From: Paeniglutamicibacter psychrophenolicus | Lineage (GTDB): Bacteria > Actinomycetota > Actinomycetes > Actinomycetales > Micrococcaceae | Reading direction: 5' to 3' | Length of the DNA stretch: 64,000 bases | Assembly (NCBI RefSeq): GCF_030812255.1 | Contig: NZ_JAUSSH010000002.1 | Span: 434,001 to 498,000, forward strand | Shown: positions 22,781 to 28,560 of the stretch, piece after piece | How the letters are laid out: every line of letters starts with the position of its first letter | Position numbering within the stretch: the first letter of the stretch is position 1 | Notes under the pieces: generated by a model | What the model was told of the DNA's origin: nothing | Seen by the model: the letters and a program-made list of their open reading frames with translations, nothing else | The model's database searches: none | Made by a program: the position numbers and the translations under genes

Positions 22781-23272
22781 CTAGGATTTCAGGCGTCGCG
22801 AGGGTGGACCAAGGAACCGGGCGAGAGTTTCCATGGTGGCTTGCGGGTCCCCGAGGTCGCATTCCCACAGCACCAGGGATTCCCAGCCCAGGGCCTTGAG
22901 CGCCTCGGCGTTCTGCCCGTCGCGTTCGCGTGTGCGGTTGCGCTTGTCTTCCCAGAACCGGGCGTTGGTCGCCGGCGCGTGCCGGCCTGCGGGGCAATCG
23001 TGCAGATGCCAGAAGCAGCCGTTGATGAAAACGGCCTTGCGGCGGGCGCTAAAAACGATGTCCGGGGCACCGGGGAGTTTTCCGCCGCGCAGTGTGGCTG
23101 AGGGGTGCTCACTCTTCAGATTTTCGAGTGTTCCCCGGGGAATGCGGCCGTGAAGCCGGTATCGATATCCCGCCGCGTGGAGCAACCTTCTCACGGATAA
23201 CTCGGGCTTCGTATCCTTTCCGCGAATCCTGCCCATCAGTTGCGAGCGCGCCTGTTGGGACATGCTGTCCAT
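22781..23272 (-). CDS. vsr: Very short patch repair (Vsr-type) endonuclease
   Basis: This 163-residue nuclease starts MDSMSQQARSQLMGRIRGKDTKPEL, split as MDSMSQQARSQLMGRIRG and KDTKPELSVRRLL, the Vsr N-terminus. It contains the catalytic LPGAPDIVF (Asp), GCFWHLHDCP and WEDKRNRTRERD. Vsr nicks beside T:G mismatches formed by deamination of 5-methylcytosine and normally partners a cytosine methyltransferase. None is encoded in this window. The open frame continues 24 codons upstream, but that would run through a perfect dyad at 23279-23301, so the shorter start is preferred. A loop of unusual length precedes LPGAPDIVF. Confidence 0.85.
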   Translation of the reverse strand: MDSMSQQARSQLMGRIRGKDTKPELSVRRLLHAAGYRYRLHGRIPRGTLENLKSEHPSATLRGGKLPGAPDIVFSARRKAVFINGCFWHLHDCPAGRHAPATNARFWEDKRNRTRERDGQNAEALKALGWESLVLWECDLGDPQATMETLARFLGPPSRRLKS

Positions 23273-23278
23273 GTACCG

Positions 23279-23301
23279 ATTGTGCACCCATGATGCACAA
23301 T
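23279..23301 (-). promoter_or_regulatory. Operator-like dyad directly upstream of vsr
   Basis: ATTGTGCA-N7-TGCACAAT is a perfect 8-bp inverted repeat ending seven bases before the vsr ATG. It is well placed to bind a dimeric repressor and block transcription or translation of vsr. No candidate regulator is adjacent. Confidence 0.45.
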
Positions 23302-23703
23302 GCGTCATGGTCAACCGGCCGAGTGAAAATTTTCTTGCCGCCATCGAATTACTTGCCGTCGGTTTGCTTCATATTCCCGCATCGGGGAAGCAAACCGATT
23401 CGGCTTCGTGGCCGTGGCCGGTTTTGGCGGTGCAGAGGCCCCAAATCCTGTGGCCCCGGCGAATGGCATGCAAGGTTTTGCGGAAGAACCGGGAGCGTTG
23501 GTTGACGGCCTACTCATGGGTAATGCCCTGATTTTGGACAGGGAACCGTTTCACAAATTTCTGCCTTCGGGATGGATCCGCCCTGGAATTTATAGTCAAA
23601 GGTCCATATGCAGGGTTTGAAGCGTGTGTTTGACTGTTGAGCACCCGGTGCCTCGGCACACACTTTTGAAGGTGGCAATGGCGCCACCGGACAGGATGAA
23701 AAC
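23302..23703. other. Gap without a convincing gene; one stem-loop
   Basis: No open frame here has convincing composition, ribosome-binding site or recognisable content. A perfect 12-bp inverted repeat (TCGGTTTGCTTC at 23359-23370, complement at 23387-23398) forms a stem with a 16-base loop of unknown use. The region contains AT-richer patches, and the protease promoter should lie in its last 100 bases. Confidence 0.5.
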
Positions 23704-24699
23704 TTGCAAACGAAGTACGTAAGCCAGAATCCAAAGACCAAATCCATGAGCAGGACGGTGGCGGCACTTCTCCTCGCTGGCGCCCTGATCGGCGGGACCG
23801 CGTCAACGGCAACTTCGGCCCCGCTGTCCGAAACCGACTCGGTCGACACTAAGAAGATCTCCGCGACGCAGGGTGATGCGGCGATGGACTACTGGACTCC
23901 GCAGCGAATGAAGGAAGCCAAATCGGCCGACGTCCTTGCCCGCGGCAAGTCGGCCTCCAACGCCCCGCTGAATATCGGCAAATCGACGAAGATTGCCGGG
24001 CGAAGCGCAAACGCAAACAAGGTCAAGCCGAATGCAGGAAAACCAAGCAAAAACGTGGCACAGACCCCCGTTTCCCACATCGGCAAGGTGTTCTTCACCT
24101 TGGGTGGAGCGGACTACGTGTGCTCCGGAAATGCCGTTGTCTCCGCAAACGAGTCGACGGTCTCGACGGCCGGCCACTGTGTCAACGAGGGTCCGGGCGC
24201 CTTTGCTACCCGGTGGGTCTTTGTGCCCGCCTACGAAAACGGCAATGCTCCCTACGGGTCCTTTGCGGCCACCGAGCTCGTCGCTCCGACCCAGTGGTCA
24301 AATGACGGGGACATCACCTACGACACGGCCTTCGCAGTGGTCTCCGACCAGAGTGGCGTGAGCCTGGCGGACAAGGTCGGCACCTCGGGTGTCGCCTTCA
24401 ACCAGGCCCGGGGCCTGACGTACAGTGCATTCGGATACCCGGCCGCACGGCCGTTCAACGGCGAGACCTTGCAGTCATGCAGTGGAACCGCGACGGATGA
24501 TCCCTACGGACAGACCCAGTCCCAGGGGATTCCGTGCAACATGACCGGCGGTTCCTCCGGTGGTCCATGGTTCCTCGGTGGATCCGACGGTTTCCAGAAC
24601 TCGGTGAACAGCTTCGGTTACGGAGGCATCCGCGACACGATGTTCGGTCCATACTGGGGATCGGTCATTGAGCAGGCTTACCAGAGCGCACAAAACTAG
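23704..24699 (+). CDS. Secreted trypsin-like serine protease (S1 family)
   Basis: A TTG start with AGGA upstream gives 331 residues; an ATG at 23746 is the alternative. The N-terminus has basic residues then a hydrophobic core (VAALLLAGALIGGTAS) and a likely signal cleavage near ATSA. A ~75-residue Lys/Asn-rich propeptide-like stretch precedes the protease domain, which has the catalytic His in STAGHC, Asp in TYDTAFAVV and Ser in GGSSGGPW. Conserved Cys pairs flank His and Ser. It resembles the actinobacterial glutamyl-endopeptidase/V8-like group, but specificity is not assigned. It stands alone with its own terminator. Confidence 0.85.
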   Translation: MQTKYVSQNPKTKSMSRTVAALLLAGALIGGTASTATSAPLSETDSVDTKKISATQGDAAMDYWTPQRMKEAKSADVLARGKSASNAPLNIGKSTKIAGRSANANKVKPNAGKPSKNVAQTPVSHIGKVFFTLGGADYVCSGNAVVSANESTVSTAGHCVNEGPGAFATRWVFVPAYENGNAPYGSFAATELVAPTQWSNDGDITYDTAFAVVSDQSGVSLADKVGTSGVAFNQARGLTYSAFGYPAARPFNGETLQSCSGTATDDPYGQTQSQGIPCNMTGGSSGGPWFLGGSDGFQNSVNSFGYGGIRDTMFGPYWGSVIEQAYQSAQN

Positions 24700-24780: not shown

Positions 24781-24954
24781 ATGGAAACCAGCGATGACGC
24801 AAACAAGGAACCACAGGGCGAGGCACCTTCCGTCTCCAAACTGAAGGCGACGCCCCAAGAACAGGTTGAATACTTCACGGAAGATCGGCGCAAGGCCGCT
24901 GTGCCCCGGGAGATCGAATTGCCCGACCCGGAGAAGACCAGCGACGAGGATTGA
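24781..24954 (+). CDS. Small hypothetical acidic protein (57 residues)
   Basis: A short frame begins METSDDANKEPQGEAP and ends DPEKTSDED. It has AAGGA eight bases before the ATG and a highly charged, low-complexity composition predicted to be disordered, with a central KLKATPQEQVEYFTEDRRK segment. It ends nine bases before the first copy of the dispersed structured repeat. No family is recognised. Codon use and the ribosome-binding site make it plausible; nothing more can be said of function. Confidence 0.55.
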   Translation: METSDDANKEPQGEAPSVSKLKATPQEQVEYFTEDRRKAAVPREIELPDPEKTSDED

Positions 24955-24962
24955 CCTGGTCC

Positions 24963-25061
24963 TTAAAGGTTTGAGCACCGGTCGGAAGATTCGGGGGACA
25001 AATCATATTTCCGACCGGTGCTCGCATCACTCGCACCTTCATGAGGTAGTAATGACTCTAG
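24963..25061. repeat. Structured repeat, copy 1 (15-bp stem plus conserved tail)
   Basis: A perfect 15-bp stem (GAGCACCGGTCGGAA at 24973-24987, complement at 25009-25023) is followed by a tail starting CATCACTCGCACCTTCA and ending GACTCTAG. The whole unit recurs at 26419-26512 in the same orientation, including the tail and the TTAAAG before the stem. Only the loop differs. Terminators do not usually conserve flanks like this. It may be a structured RNA or a small mobile element. The stretch 25062-25362 between this copy and the HD gene shows no supported gene. Confidence 0.8.
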
Positions 25062-25362
25062 AACCGGAGCCTATGGATTTGATGTGCCTGGCCATGGCGT
25101 CCGGTGTGAGTGTCAGGAAGACGACCGGAAAGCCTGATGTCCGGGGCTGCAAGTCCAGCGTCTCCCGTTGACCCAGGTGTCCCCGGCAGACGCCTTGCAA
25201 CAGCCGCATCGGACGGTGTCGTCACTCCAGTCCGCCCCGCCGAGGACGCCTGCTCGTGGCAGGACCCGCGAGGGACGATGATTCGAAAGCCCCCGGCTTT
25301 GTCAGCTGTTTCCCGACGCTGGGCCGCCACCGCGAAGGCGACCCCATTCCCGGCGTCTTGGA

Positions 25363-26043
25363 TCATTGGTGGAGTTCCCGGCTGCGGGGCCAGAGGTTCG
25401 CTTGCTCGAAGGCGAGCAGTCCATGGGCCATGGTGGTGGCTTGCGGAGTGAATAGCTTGTCCAGTACCCGCGACGCACACAGGCGTAGGGCCTGACCGCG
25501 GTGAAGCCCGAACCAGTCCATGACGGTATCCAGCCCGTGCGGGGTCAACAACCAGAGTTTGTCGGCGTCCTTGACGATCTCATCTTCGGGGCCTATCGCC
25601 TCGGAGCGCGAGTCATGCCCGTCAACGATGGCCGCGACCTGCTTGGTGATGAGTGGATCCACGCGGAGGGATTCGAGGATCTCCGTGGCCAGCCGGGCGC
25701 CGGCCTTTTCGTGCTGCAACACCAGATCGGTTCGTCCGCCTCCCGGTGCTATTGCGGCGAGAACCTGCCCCGGTTCAACCTCCGACCAGCCAATGTCATG
25801 CAACATGATCGCAGGTAGCACCACGCCCGGGTCGGCCTGCGGATGTTCATCGAGCAGCGCGGATGCCAAGGACAGGGAGTAGAGGGTATGCATGTCGTTG
25901 TCGCGAACGGCCAGCAGGGACCGGGCCCGTCCCCAGATTTCACCCAGAAGCGGCTGGGTCTCGAAAAGGTCGGGCATCGGGGGTGGGATGTGCTCGGAGG
26001 TGTCTAGGCCGAAGTGGTTGGCCTGCGGATGCACTTTGATCAT
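25363..26043 (-). CDS. HD-domain phosphohydrolase family protein
   Basis: The 226-residue protein shows the HD metal-binding set: an upstream His in NDMHTLYSLSLASALL, His-Asp in IMLHDIGWSE (residues ~84-85), His in LQHEKAGARLA, and Asp in AIVDGHDSR and VKDADKLWLLTP. HD proteins hydrolyse phosphate esters of nucleotides or signalling molecules; no substrate can be named. Its start overlaps the stop of the upstream small gene (ATGA). Together they lie between two direct copies of the structured repeat. A GTG two codons upstream is an alternative start. Confidence 0.8.
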   Translation of the reverse strand: MIKVHPQANHFGLDTSEHIPPPMPDLFETQPLLGEIWGRARSLLAVRDNDMHTLYSLSLASALLDEHPQADPGVVLPAIMLHDIGWSEVEPGQVLAAIAPGGGRTDLVLQHEKAGARLATEILESLRVDPLITKQVAAIVDGHDSRSEAIGPEDEIVKDADKLWLLTPHGLDTVMDWFGLHRGQALRLCASRVLDKLFTPQATTMAHGLLAFEQANLWPRSRELHQ

Positions 26044-26366
26044 GGGCACATACTTGCACCTGCACCTGTTTTTCCCAAGGGTTGTTTTCGCGTCGGTGGA
26101 AATCGCTGATTAATGCCGAACGTAGGAATTATGGAGTGCCCGGCCTCGGCGAGTTCATCCTGGGCATCGATCCGACAAACAGGCAACGGGGCTTTCCCCG
26201 GCGGCTGCGACTCCACCTTGAGCGGCTCCAACAGGACTACGGGGTACGGCTCCCGGGGCTTCGGGCTGCACGGAAGGAACCAACGGGCAGCCAACACATC
26301 CGCGTTCCGGAGGTGTTGTTCGAGCAACTCAGTCACGCGGCCAAGCCGGACCGCGGTCGTGGGCAT
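26040..26366 (-). CDS. Hypothetical protein coupled to the HD-domain gene
   Basis: A 108-residue frame (MPTTAVRLGRVTELLEQ...) ends exactly on the HD gene's start with an ATGA overlap. Codon third positions are GC-rich through most of its length, as in a real gene, although the last ~20 codons are AT-richer. No domain is recognised: there is a predicted N-terminal helix (VTELLEQHLRNADVLAARWF), then a Pro-rich stretch. It starts 53 bases downstream of repeat copy 2. It could be a remnant of a larger gene. Confidence 0.45.
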   Translation of the reverse strand: MPTTAVRLGRVTELLEQHLRNADVLAARWFLPCSPKPREPYPVVLLEPLKVESQPPGKAPLPVCRIDAQDELAEAGHSIIPTFGINQRFPPTRKQPLGKTGAGASMCP

Positions 26367-26418
26367 CCAAGGTCCACGGGTTGCGGTGGTGGCTCGCCCG
26401 GACGTCCGAACGCGACCG

Positions 26419-26512
26419 TTAAAGAGGTGAGCACCGGCCGGAAGATTATGGGGGGATTCTTCCGACCGGTGCTCTCATCACTCGCACCTTCAAGAGGCAA
26501 CTACGACTCTAG
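26419..26512. repeat. Structured repeat, copy 2 (15-bp stem plus conserved tail)
   Basis: This is the second copy of the unit at 24963-25061, in direct orientation. Stem arms are at 26429-26443 and 26460-26474. One base differs from copy 1 within the stem (GGCCGG for GGTCGG). As minus-strand RNA that change is a tolerated G-U pair, as plus-strand RNA it is a C-A mismatch, a weak hint that the functional transcript is the minus strand. It begins 65 bases after the MFS stop and would lie in the 5' leader of the small gene/HD operon. Confidence 0.8.
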
Positions 26513-26576
26513 GCAATCATTCTGGACATTTCATGGGCAACGGCATCGCGTTTCATGTGATTGCAGGTGTGCGCGC

Positions 26577-27815
26577 CTACTGGGCGTGGGAGAAGTGCAT
26601 GCTGCCGCGGCGGCCGACCAGGACCGCGGACAGGATGATGCCAAGGACGGCGAAGACGCTGGTCATCCACCAGGTCGAAGACCAGCCGCCGGTGCTCATG
26701 GCCAGCCAGGCCACGATCATTGGGCCGGTGAAGTTGCCGACGTTGTAGATCTGCTGCATCAAGCCCATGGCTGCCGGGGCCGAACCACCCTCCGGGGCCA
26801 GGTCCACCGCCATCCGGGTCATGGTTGCCGGGATCATGGCCCCGGAGAGCGAGAAGAACCCGACGCAAGCGACCTGCCAGGCCAGTCCGCCGGGAACCGG
26901 GGACCAGTCAACGGCAAAGGTCGCCAGGCCCGCCGCGGCCATCAACACGAAGGAGAGGAACAACAGGGCGCGGGCCGGGGCGCCGCGCTGGAGCAGCATA
27001 CTGGTGATGATGGCGCCGACCCCGTTGAGCCCGCCCACAACGGCCGACAACACCCCGGCGTGCGTGCCGCTCAATCCGCTGTCCCCGTAGAGCGTAGGCA
27101 GGAACCCGACCACGGCCATCCACTGGACGGTGTAGCAGCCGAAGACCACCCCGGCGATCCACACCTTGGGCGAACGGGCGGTGATGCCGATGCGTCCGGC
27201 GGCCGCCCTGGCACCCCCGGCTCCGGCGGGTTGGTCCTTCGGAACCATGCGCAGCACCAACGGGATCGGCACCAGGCTGACGGCGGCCATGACCCACCAC
27301 CACGCCTGCCACGTGCCGACCTGCAGGAAGTAGGCGCTGGCGATCAATCCCACGAAGGTCGCGGTGCCCTGGTAGGCGCTCCAGCAGCCGACGGCCAGGT
27401 TGACGCGGCGAAACGGTGCATGGCGGCGGATCAGGCCCGGTCCCACCACGGTGGCCACAATGAAGCCGATGCCCTCAATGGCCCGCGAGGCCAGCAGGGT
27501 GTTCGCGCCGATGGACAGGGCACCAAAGATCGACCCGGCACTCAGGAAGACCAATCCCAGCAGCAGGGTCCGGCGCTCGCCGATGACCTCGGCCAACAGG
27601 GACACCGCCAGGCCGCCGACCATGCCGGCCACCTGCACGATGCCCAGCAACACCCCGGCGGCAAGCAGGGACAGGCCCAGGTCCTCCTGGATCCTTGGAA
27701 GTGCCGCGGGCAGCTTCCAGATATGCAGGGCCGCGGTGATGCCGGCAACCACCACCACGATCCAGGCGGCGTTGCCGCTGGCGGTGCGTTGGAGGCTCGG
27801 TTGGGTCAAGGTCAA
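26577..27815 (-). CDS. MFS transporter, CynX/NimT-like
   Basis: A TTG start at 27815, with AAGGA nine bases upstream, gives a 412-residue protein with about twelve transmembrane helices beginning AAWIVVVVAGITAALHIWKLPAALP. The MFS loop motif is LLAEVIGERRTLLLG, and RAIEGIGFIVATVVGPGLIRRH is the second conserved region. The layout resembles cyanate/nitroimidazole exporters (CynX/NimT). The substrate is unknown. The open frame upstream of the TTG is spurious. It lies divergent from the VOC gene across a 211-base gap with no obvious regulatory dyad. Confidence 0.78.
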   Translation of the reverse strand: MTLTQPSLQRTASGNAAWIVVVVAGITAALHIWKLPAALPRIQEDLGLSLLAAGVLLGIVQVAGMVGGLAVSLLAEVIGERRTLLLGLVFLSAGSIFGALSIGANTLLASRAIEGIGFIVATVVGPGLIRRHAPFRRVNLAVGCWSAYQGTATFVGLIASAYFLQVGTWQAWWWVMAAVSLVPIPLVLRMVPKDQPAGAGGARAAAGRIGITARSPKVWIAGVVFGCYTVQWMAVVGFLPTLYGDSGLSGTHAGVLSAVVGGLNGVGAIITSMLLQRGAPARALLFLSFVLMAAAGLATFAVDWSPVPGGLAWQVACVGFFSLSGAMIPATMTRMAVDLAPEGGSAPAAMGLMQQIYNVGNFTGPMIVAWLAMSTGGWSSTWWMTSVFAVLGIILSAVLVGRRGSMHFSHAQ

Positions 27816-28026
27816 TGGAACAGGTCCTTCGCTGGGCAGTTGATCGGATTCTTCCACGCCAGTGACCGGAATACGAAGATATGTCGTGGCGAGCCAGGGG
27901 GGCGGGCAGTGATCCGGAACACGAGTCGGCACGGAACCCTGTCGGATTCCTTCAAGACGCCGGACCTGCATGAGGGGTTCAATGGAACGGCAAGCAACCG
28001 TCCAGGCTTTTGAAGGGTGAGAGACC

Positions 28027-28560
28027 ATGCCCATGGAACCAACAACCACGGCAGCGACCGGCAAGCACACGACCAACGGGGTGCCGCACGGCTACACGGC
28101 GCTGACCCCGTTCATCGTCGTTACTCCGGCGCAGGCAGCCATCGAGTTCTACCGAGAGGTCTTCGGCGCCACCGTGCTCTCGGTGATGCCAGGTGCCCCG
28201 ACGGAGGACGGCAGCCCGACCGTCTCGCATGCCGAGCTCGACTTCGGCAACGGAATCCTGCAGCTCTCGGACCCGCAGCCGGGGTACGGGCTGGTCGCGG
28301 CCGACGCGCAGCACACCAACAATTCCCTTGCGGTCTACGTGCAGGATGTGGACGCCGTCTTCGCACGCGCGCTGGAACGCGGCGCCACCGCCGTTGAGCA
28401 ACCCGCCGACTTCGTCTCCGGGGACCGCTTCGCCACCTTCGTGGATGCGTTCGGTCGGCGTTGGAACGTCATGACCCGCGTGGAAGACCTGTCCCGGGAG
28501 GAATCCGAGGCCCGGGTCACGGCCTGGTTGGAGACCTTCAACGCCACGGGCACCGCGTAG
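28027..28560 (+). CDS. VOC (glyoxalase/bleomycin-resistance) family protein, PhnB-like
   Basis: The 177-residue protein has two paired beta-alpha-beta-beta-beta units typical of the VOC fold: LTPFIVVTPAQAAIEFYREVFGATV at the start and DVDAVFARALERGATAVEQPADF in the second half, ending with GRRWNVMTRVEDLS. The PhnB subgroup name is by similarity and gives no reaction. GAAGGG lies before the ATG. It converges with the AraC gene, 17 bases apart. Confidence 0.8.
   Translation: MPMEPTTTAATGKHTTNGVPHGYTALTPFIVVTPAQAAIEFYREVFGATVLSVMPGAPTEDGSPTVSHAELDFGNGILQLSDPQPGYGLVAADAQHTNNSLAVYVQDVDAVFARALERGATAVEQPADFVSGDRFATFVDAFGRRWNVMTRVEDLSREESEARVTAWLETFNATGTA

Follow-up and report, generated by a model that had tools for sequence, protein, structure and literature searches.

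A conserved multicopy family of predicted small RNAs with PhoP-like promoter repeats in the Micrococcaceae

Organization of the locus

The window analysed here, a 64,000-nucleotide stretch of the Paeniglutamicibacter psychrophenolicus genome, contains two related repeat units in direct orientation with a spacing of 1451–1456 bp (Table 1). Pairwise comparison of the two copies gave 83% identity between positions 24963–24997 and 26419–26453, and 87% between a second pair of aligned blocks at 25009–25061 and 26460–26512. With up to three mismatches allowed, the stem motif matches four times in the window (both arms of the two copies) versus 0.05 times expected in shuffles, and the 15-bp stem of copy I is perfect. 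The two direct copies reported in a first-pass annotation of this DNA are thereby borne out, but the unit described there was too short, as the conserved sequence goes on through the promoter region to 25108 and 26559. The tail of about 37 bases singled out in that annotation is conserved, but it corresponds to the 5′ part of an RNA plus its −10 box. The repeats look like the genes of two related small regulatory RNAs (sRNAs) transcribed from the minus strand.

A simple open reading frame (ORF) caller places the copies between genes, with some short ORFs also called over the copies themselves. Copy II lies between an MFS transporter gene and an HD-domain gene. Of the two coupled genes originally described between the copies, the HD-domain gene stands, with a Pfam HD match, whereas the second, encoding a 108-residue hypothetical protein (26040–26366, minus strand), is doubtful. 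Because it lacks a Pfam match at 1e-4 and its alignment to relatives is confined to patches of differing identity, it is perhaps no gene, and the segment may instead be non-coding leader DNA. On the other side of the repeats, a plus-strand gene (23704–24699) encodes a secreted-looking protein with a GGSSGGP motif and no Pfam match at 1e-4, which we take to resemble a chymotrypsin-fold serine protease. Downstream of it, a small protein of 57 residues (24781–24954, plus strand) has conserved counterparts of 59–62% identity, likewise following that gene, in relatives G005 and G009. A minus-strand gene at 22781–23344 presumably encodes a very-short-patch repair (Vsr-type) endonuclease, to judge from its motifs.

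Table 1 Features of the two predicted RNA genes and their neighbours in the window
Feature	Position	Strand	Basis or remark
sRNA copy I	24958–25047	−	Predicted start (A of ACCUC) to U-rich end; both ends inferred
Copy I 5′ hairpin ACCUC-AUG-AAGGU	25035–25047	−	Consensus fold and pair counts; absent from copy I's own minimum-energy fold
Copy I linker GCGAGUGAUG	25025–25034	−	Almost invariant across the family
Copy I terminator-like hairpin	24973–25023	−	15-bp stem, CCCCC in loop
Copy I −10 box TAGAGT	25055–25060	−	
Copy I CACAG-like units, four at 11-bp spacing (CACAC, CCATG, CACAT, CATAG)	25071–25108	−	
sRNA copy II	26414–26498	−	Predicted start to U-rich end; both ends inferred
Copy II 5′ hairpin GCCUC-UUG-AAGGU	26486–26498	−	
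Copy II terminator-like hairpin, CCCCCC loop	26429–26474	−	
Copy II −10 box TAGAGT	26506–26511	−	
Copy II box, four positions at 11-bp spacing, weak matches (CACAT, CGATG, CCCAT, TCCAG)	26522–26559	−	
HD-domain protein	25363–26049	−	Pfam HD, synteny; neighbour, outside the RNA genes
MFS transporter	26577–28076	−	Copy II lies behind its 3′ end; same arrangement in 5 of 8 relatives with the HD gene and in 2 with no HD match

Architecture and strand of the predicted RNA

The RNA comprises a 5′ hairpin (ACCUC-NUN-AAGGU), a near-invariant linker (GCGAGUGAU), a long hairpin whose loop is rich in C, and a short, terminator-like U-rich tail, with a predicted total length of about 85–90 nt. The 3′ hairpin with its U-rich tail is recognized by sequence among the 40 matches that were read, out of 49 in the window and 20 fetched stretches, the other nine being the opposite strand of the same stems. 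The invariance of a 21-nt tail in alignments A1–A3 is by construction, as the tail itself was the search query. A small ORF inside the RNA, for which a start in AAGGUG...GUGAUG looked possible, was rejected, its frame seeming by eye to be broken between copies.

Strand and fold were analysed on an alignment of 31 copies (30 distinct). RNAalifold predicted two hairpins with 18 pairs and −30.4 kcal/mol for the minus strand versus 16 pairs and −17.1 kcal/mol for the plus strand, on which pairs are lost as C–A; for the short stem, pairs were tallied in registers that differ slightly between the strands, with 17 of the 18 pairs common to both. For the same 13 long-stem pairs, 99.2% of cells are paired on the minus strand versus 93.1% on the plus strand, the weaker pairing of the latter arising because G–U pairs turn into C–A mismatches. 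The first-pass observation that a substituted stem base keeps its pairing in minus-strand RNA alone therefore holds across the aligned copies.

Fifteen long-stem cells are changed on both sides on the minus strand, a count reached by none of 500 shuffles; the corresponding plus-strand count likewise exceeds its own shuffles. Four of the five minus-strand covariation measures were reached by at most 3 of 500 shuffles, with the reservation that relatedness of the copies alone can beat shuffles, and the fifth, which counts further pair types, was reached by 447 of 500 and is not above chance. Covariation in the 5′ stem is not significant, with one pair changed on both sides and 64 of 500 shuffles equalling it, because this stem hardly varies. 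When copy I is folded alone, its 5′ module pairs with the U-rich 3′ end in the minimum-energy structure and the 5′ hairpin is not formed; in copy II folded alone, the hairpin forms.

Distribution in the Micrococcaceae

Scanning one-genome-per-species contigs for the conserved tail gave 25 stretches, 24 of which are named Paeniglutamicibacter, Zhihengliuella, Zafaria, Kocuria polaris, Arthrobacter or Micrococcaceae bacterium; the remaining one, from an Opitutaceae bin, was discarded as a chance match. A DNA search of the window's own genome gave 12 matches, with three full copies and one partial copy. A covariance model built from the 31 aligned copies (R1) finds four copies there on their own strand, two of them the window copies and the other two a tandem pair located at C6:57798 and C6:58238. 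R1 matches in 15 of 15 genomes of the genus, where the counts per genome include opposite-strand echoes of the same stems, and in 129 of 295 genomes and 24 of 32 genera of the family. R1 misses many copies because, across genera, the RNA keeps its promoter and its first 22 nt but exchanges its 3′ hairpin; several genera have a longer RNA with an additional middle hairpin.

A second model (R2), comprising the promoter and the 5′ module, matches at an E-value threshold of 1e-4 in 262 of 290 family genomes and all 32 genera, with one to nine matches per matched genome and three to five copies per genome of the genus. Among 20 listed of the 28 R2-negative genomes, 15 belong to genus g6, three to g3 and one each to g13 and g31. 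In a sample of the order, R2 matches in 34 of 396 genomes, of which 32 are Micrococcaceae and two belong to other families (E values 9.5e-5 and 9.5e-4), and three family genomes are among 20 listed misses. Both weak matches outside the family were rejected, since the RNA module proved absent when the stretches were read. All three genomes that match in a class sample of 296 are Micrococcaceae, and nothing convincing was found outside the family in either sample. Some genomes stand in both of our collections (L023 and G012; L029 and G007). The genome-wide tail and stem searches and the covariance model thus reveal further copies, so that a complete lack of such copies, which would have spoken for a chance local duplication, is excluded. 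One genome (G245) carries five sRNA copies within 2.4 kb (L097), with a gene for a GmrSD C-terminal domain between them, and nine matches genome-wide.

Genomic neighbourhoods

For comparison of the HD neighbourhood, 12 stretches were fetched from 11 other genomes of the genus. An HD orthologue (79–85% identity) is present in eight of the 11, each time directly behind an RNA copy. The next RNA copy is 11–12 kb away in six of these eight relatives, and the other two (G005 and G009) have the window's order of RNA, HD gene and RNA. The MFS gene precedes in five of the eight, including P. sulfureus and Arthrobacter sp. C2, with no MFS match within the fetched stretch in the remaining three. In two genomes, G014 and G010, the MFS gene is accompanied by three RNA copies, with no HD match in the fetched 5 kb, and another (G004) has an HD relative of 30% identity and none closer. 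Because HD presence and copy spacing vary among relatives, the repeats do not define the HD block, and on this comparison the HD gene is between the copies by neighbourhood only.

Other gene contexts recur. The tandem pair in the window's genome lies between a thiolase gene and an aldo/keto reductase gene, and in two g21 genomes two or three copies stand between an acyl-CoA dehydrogenase gene and an aldo/keto reductase gene. The RNA adjoins proC in five further genera (g9, g10, g26, g31 and g32), and the proC loci tested have a TIM-barrel or Ppx/GppA gene on the RNA's other side; in two of them (L130 and L139) the RNA stands between proC and the TIM-barrel gene and runs opposite to both.

Predicted promoter architecture

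A TAnnnT −10 box lies 6–8 nt before the predicted start (ACCUC) in all 103 distinct copies that were fetched by RNA or tail sequence rather than by promoter; these are distinct sequences rather than independent loci, and 53 are left at 80% identity. Because loci L109–L138 were fetched with a promoter-containing model, the 130 of 131 obtained in the unit analysis is partly by construction, which the 103 of 103 is not. Upstream of the −10 box, positions are conserved with an 11-bp period. Among 93 non-redundant promoters, the score for a CACAG unit peaks at −48, −37, −26 and −15 from the −10 box (3.46, 2.71, 3.31 and 3.47 of 5), whereas all other offsets from −55 to −9 score 0.27–2.12. The units are on average four, 11 bp apart, and are weak in both window copies. 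The aligned sRNA promoters have no conserved −35 box. PhoB/OmpR-type activators use repeats next to a −10 box without a −35 box.

The TCACAG-like direct repeats with 11-bp period that mark the PhoP regulon are present here as a family average. PhoP of Mycobacterium tuberculosis is described as binding TCACAGC repeats with a strict 4-bp spacer, with higher affinity for three or four motifs than for two (PMC4832192), and the units and spacing of the sRNA promoters agree with these sites. The related GTCACAgcg repeats are reported to be read by mycobacterial MtrA (PMC2945938, PMC13189361). Over all loci fetched so far, four promoter-matrix matches above 13 are not followed by the RNA motif (L149, L066, L024 and L119), and L119 looks like a further copy with other spacing. 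In another family of the order, a locus fetched with the promoter-containing model (L225) has no sRNA module but carries two TCACAG units at 11-bp spacing immediately before a −10-like TACGGT, and is possibly another PhoP-type promoter. The comparisons support a conserved minus-strand RNA element, with its own promoter-like sequence and terminator-like end, throughout the Micrococcaceae.

Candidate regulator

The OmpR-type DNA-binding domain is matched 11 times in the window's genome. One of the corresponding loci (L143) encodes the PhoP orthologue, with an E value of 8e-84 to PhoP versus 2e-51 to the next other protein in a comparison with solved structures, and all 46 family genomes sampled have a match to it. 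The start codon at L143 is preceded by CACAA, CACAG and TACAG at 11-bp steps, then a −10-like CAGACT. The four-unit sum for this phoP gene is 14, within the shuffle range of 11–15. Across 30 phoP loci (the best 30 of the 46 family genomes), 27 have three units scoring at least 10 of 15 within 140 nt upstream versus 217 of 1500 shuffles (14%). Averaged over these loci, the unit score has modest maxima at −60, −49, −38 and −27 relative to the start codon (2.07, 2.27, 2.27 and 2.70), with neighbouring offsets reaching 1.97.

A second PhoP-like regulator (L146, G000:C16:32997-33215) is preceded by three perfect CACAG units at 11-bp steps, which by eye end a few tens of bp short of a plausible start codon. 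Its four-unit sum of 17 of 20 is above all 80 shuffles, and because its box is stronger, it is an equal candidate for the activator. The pstS promoter of the window's genome has GTTCACC repeats, unlike the sRNA promoter units, and scores 0.8 against the sRNA promoter matrix (training median 33.4) and 10.2, above background, against a later matrix (training median 32.8). Since the pstS box differs and scores low, the phosphate regulator appears less likely as activator. MtrA was also set aside, as no box was found at L145, which we take to be the mtrA locus (best score −4.6). A PhoP-type regulator, encoded at L143 or L146, is thus the best-supported candidate activator, with other OmpR-type regulators also possible.

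Relation to known RNAs

No Rfam 15 family matches at gathering score in the window. A permissive scan of 24900–26650 gave two matches, both far below cut-off, and 20 loci with family members gave one match, to a c-di-AMP riboswitch elsewhere in L091. Among the options raised in the first-pass annotation, that of an sRNA is supported by the promoter-like sequence, the terminator-like end and the family-wide occurrence.

Several described RNAs resemble the family in part. The 6C RNA of Actinobacteria has C-rich loops. It is actinobacterial like the present family, but its model (RF01066) has no match in the window's genome; this test is not very sensitive, because among 14 control genomes RF01066 matched in Corynebacterium glutamicum only, and there below cut-off. 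The Streptococcus csRNAs under CiaR are several homologous sRNAs whose promoters carry direct-repeat sites of an OmpR-family regulator, but they differ in being unrelated in sequence and host.

In Listeria monocytogenes, LhrC1–5 are multicopy sibling sRNAs dependent on the LisR response regulator, and their C-rich UCCC motifs, of which the terminator loop carries one, are held to bind Shine–Dalgarno regions; LhrC, RsaE and others are said to block Shine–Dalgarno sequences by C-rich motifs (PMC4132741). The family shares with LhrC its sibling copies and a C-rich motif, as well as control by a regulator, which is predicted here. LhrC differs in belonging to another phylum, in sequence by Rfam scan and in having a CU-rich motif three times (PMC4132741), whereas the RNA described here combines a single C-rich loop with a constant 5′ hairpin and linker. 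In M. tuberculosis, Mcr7 is a PhoP-dependent non-coding RNA and a major PhoP target, and a loop in it is predicted to base-pair at the tatC ribosome-binding site (PMC4038636). It thus shares with our family a loop proposed to pair and the orthologous regulator, PhoP, a candidate here. It is set apart by description, as a 350-nt transcript from one locus for which the available part of the report describes no tandem family (PMC4038636). We infer that the family works like LhrC and PhoP–Mcr7, and by the tests run it is a member of neither.

Two reports concern Arthrobacter itself. Ms1 is reported there by a synteny study (PMC9130861) and was rejected as a match by the synteny description alone, as given in the available part of that study, since its flanking genes differ (HAD hydrolase, oxidoreductase). 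Four sRNAs are reported in Arthrobacter oxidans KQ11 (PMC6696678) and could belong to the family, of which we found no description in the available parts of the literature consulted. The Micrococcaceae RNA family is thus apparently undescribed. If this is right, an sRNA family that is missing from Rfam and comes with a ready regulator hypothesis is present in 262 of 290 sampled Micrococcaceae genomes; named family records include Paeniglutamicibacter, Zhihengliuella, Kocuria, Zafaria and Arthrobacter.

Proposed function

We consider it probable that the repeats belong to a PhoP-controlled, multicopy family of trans-acting sRNAs working like LhrC, with the C-rich loop most likely pairing with mRNAs. 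The basis is the conservation of sequence and structure, the strand, the −10 box, the phased repeats (also at phoP), the copy number and the distribution. What the model predicts, namely transcription between the proposed start and end points, activation by PhoP and pairing with mRNAs, would proceed as follows. A response regulator of the OmpR/PhoB family, with the PhoP orthologue as the most likely one, would bind the CACAG-like tandem units adjoining the −10 box and recruit RNA polymerase to a promoter without a −35 box, turning on several sibling RNAs at once. The resulting minus-strand RNA of 85–90 nt, ending at the long hairpin, would offer two potentially single-stranded parts: the linker GCGAGUGAU behind the small hairpin and the C-rich loop, of the UUCCCCCAA type. 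The loop would most likely pair with G-rich ribosome-binding sites of target mRNAs and thereby block translation. Sibling copies would provide dosage and allow the loop to vary, and the constant 5′ hairpin and linker could serve to seed pairing, to bind a protein or to stabilize the RNA. If the model is right, these RNAs are direct, conserved outputs of PhoP in the Micrococcaceae, parallel to mycobacterial PhoP–Mcr7.

In 79 of 110 non-redundant copies the minimum-energy fold leaves most of a run of at least four C unpaired, with loops that are most often UUCCCCCAA or CUCCCCCGA, and CCCC occurs in the 3′ part of 91 of the 110 versus 61.3 expected, moderately above chance. For the linker, the perfect complement ATCACTCGCACC has 76 matches in 15 genus genomes versus two for a backward control; 66 of the 76 fall on R1 copies and 10 elsewhere, and in the window's genome all four are sRNA genes. 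Among the four off-copy matches that were read, two are the same gene in near-identical stretches and the other two differ, so that no conserved mRNA complementary to the linker emerged from these four of the 10.

This last result, together with the near-invariance of the first 22 nt across genera while the 3′ hairpin changes, and the several, often tandem, copies, would also fit a different reading. Protein-binding sponge RNAs are known, such as CsrB and RsmZ. The 5′ hairpin and linker might likewise bind an RNA-binding protein that the copies titrate, leaving the 3′ hairpin as a mere terminator. We hold this to be unlikely, because C-rich loops recur in unlike hairpins in the 79 copies above, and each RNA has a single binding module rather than an array. 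A related and still rather doubtful idea is that the constant ACCUC-NUN-AAGGUGCGAGUGAU module, and not the variable loop, is the working part of an RNA arm of PhoP common to the Micrococcaceae, docking an RNA-binding protein (a chaperone, or one that is titrated), and that the 3′ hairpins are exchanged like cartridges addressing different mRNAs. A cis-acting role as terminators or leaders of neighbouring genes seems very improbable. The long hairpin with its U-rich tail does resemble an intrinsic terminator, and some copies closely follow a gene (thiolase, MFS); however, a terminator would make the 5′ module, the −10 box and the phased repeats superfluous, copy I leads no gene because it runs toward a convergent small gene, and the RNA at L130 and L139 runs counter to the genes on both sides.

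The first-pass annotation had also considered that the unit is a small non-autonomous mobile element or that the HD module arrived by way of the repeats. Direct repeats do flank a gene, each genome has several copies, and one relative's copy adjoins a gene with an integrase core domain (L031). Yet the copy number is low, at four in the window's genome, three to five per genus genome with R2 and one to nine in matched family genomes, rather than REP- or MITE-like; the neighbours recur; and across the 11 genus genomes compared the HD gene is present or absent regardless of the copies. Neither a mobile element of the MITE or REP type nor an origin of the HD module through these repeats retains more than a marginal likelihood.

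We know of no Hfq in the Micrococcaceae group. If the preferred reading of a PhoP-controlled, mRNA-pairing family is right, its members form a natural series of sibling RNAs, with constant 5′ and exchanged 3′ parts, for asking which part works without a known Hfq. Genus g6 (for example, G019 and G049), which accounts for most of the listed sRNA-less genomes and has one weak match, in G266, offers a natural loss of the sRNA for comparison; phoP was matched in both g6 genomes tested.
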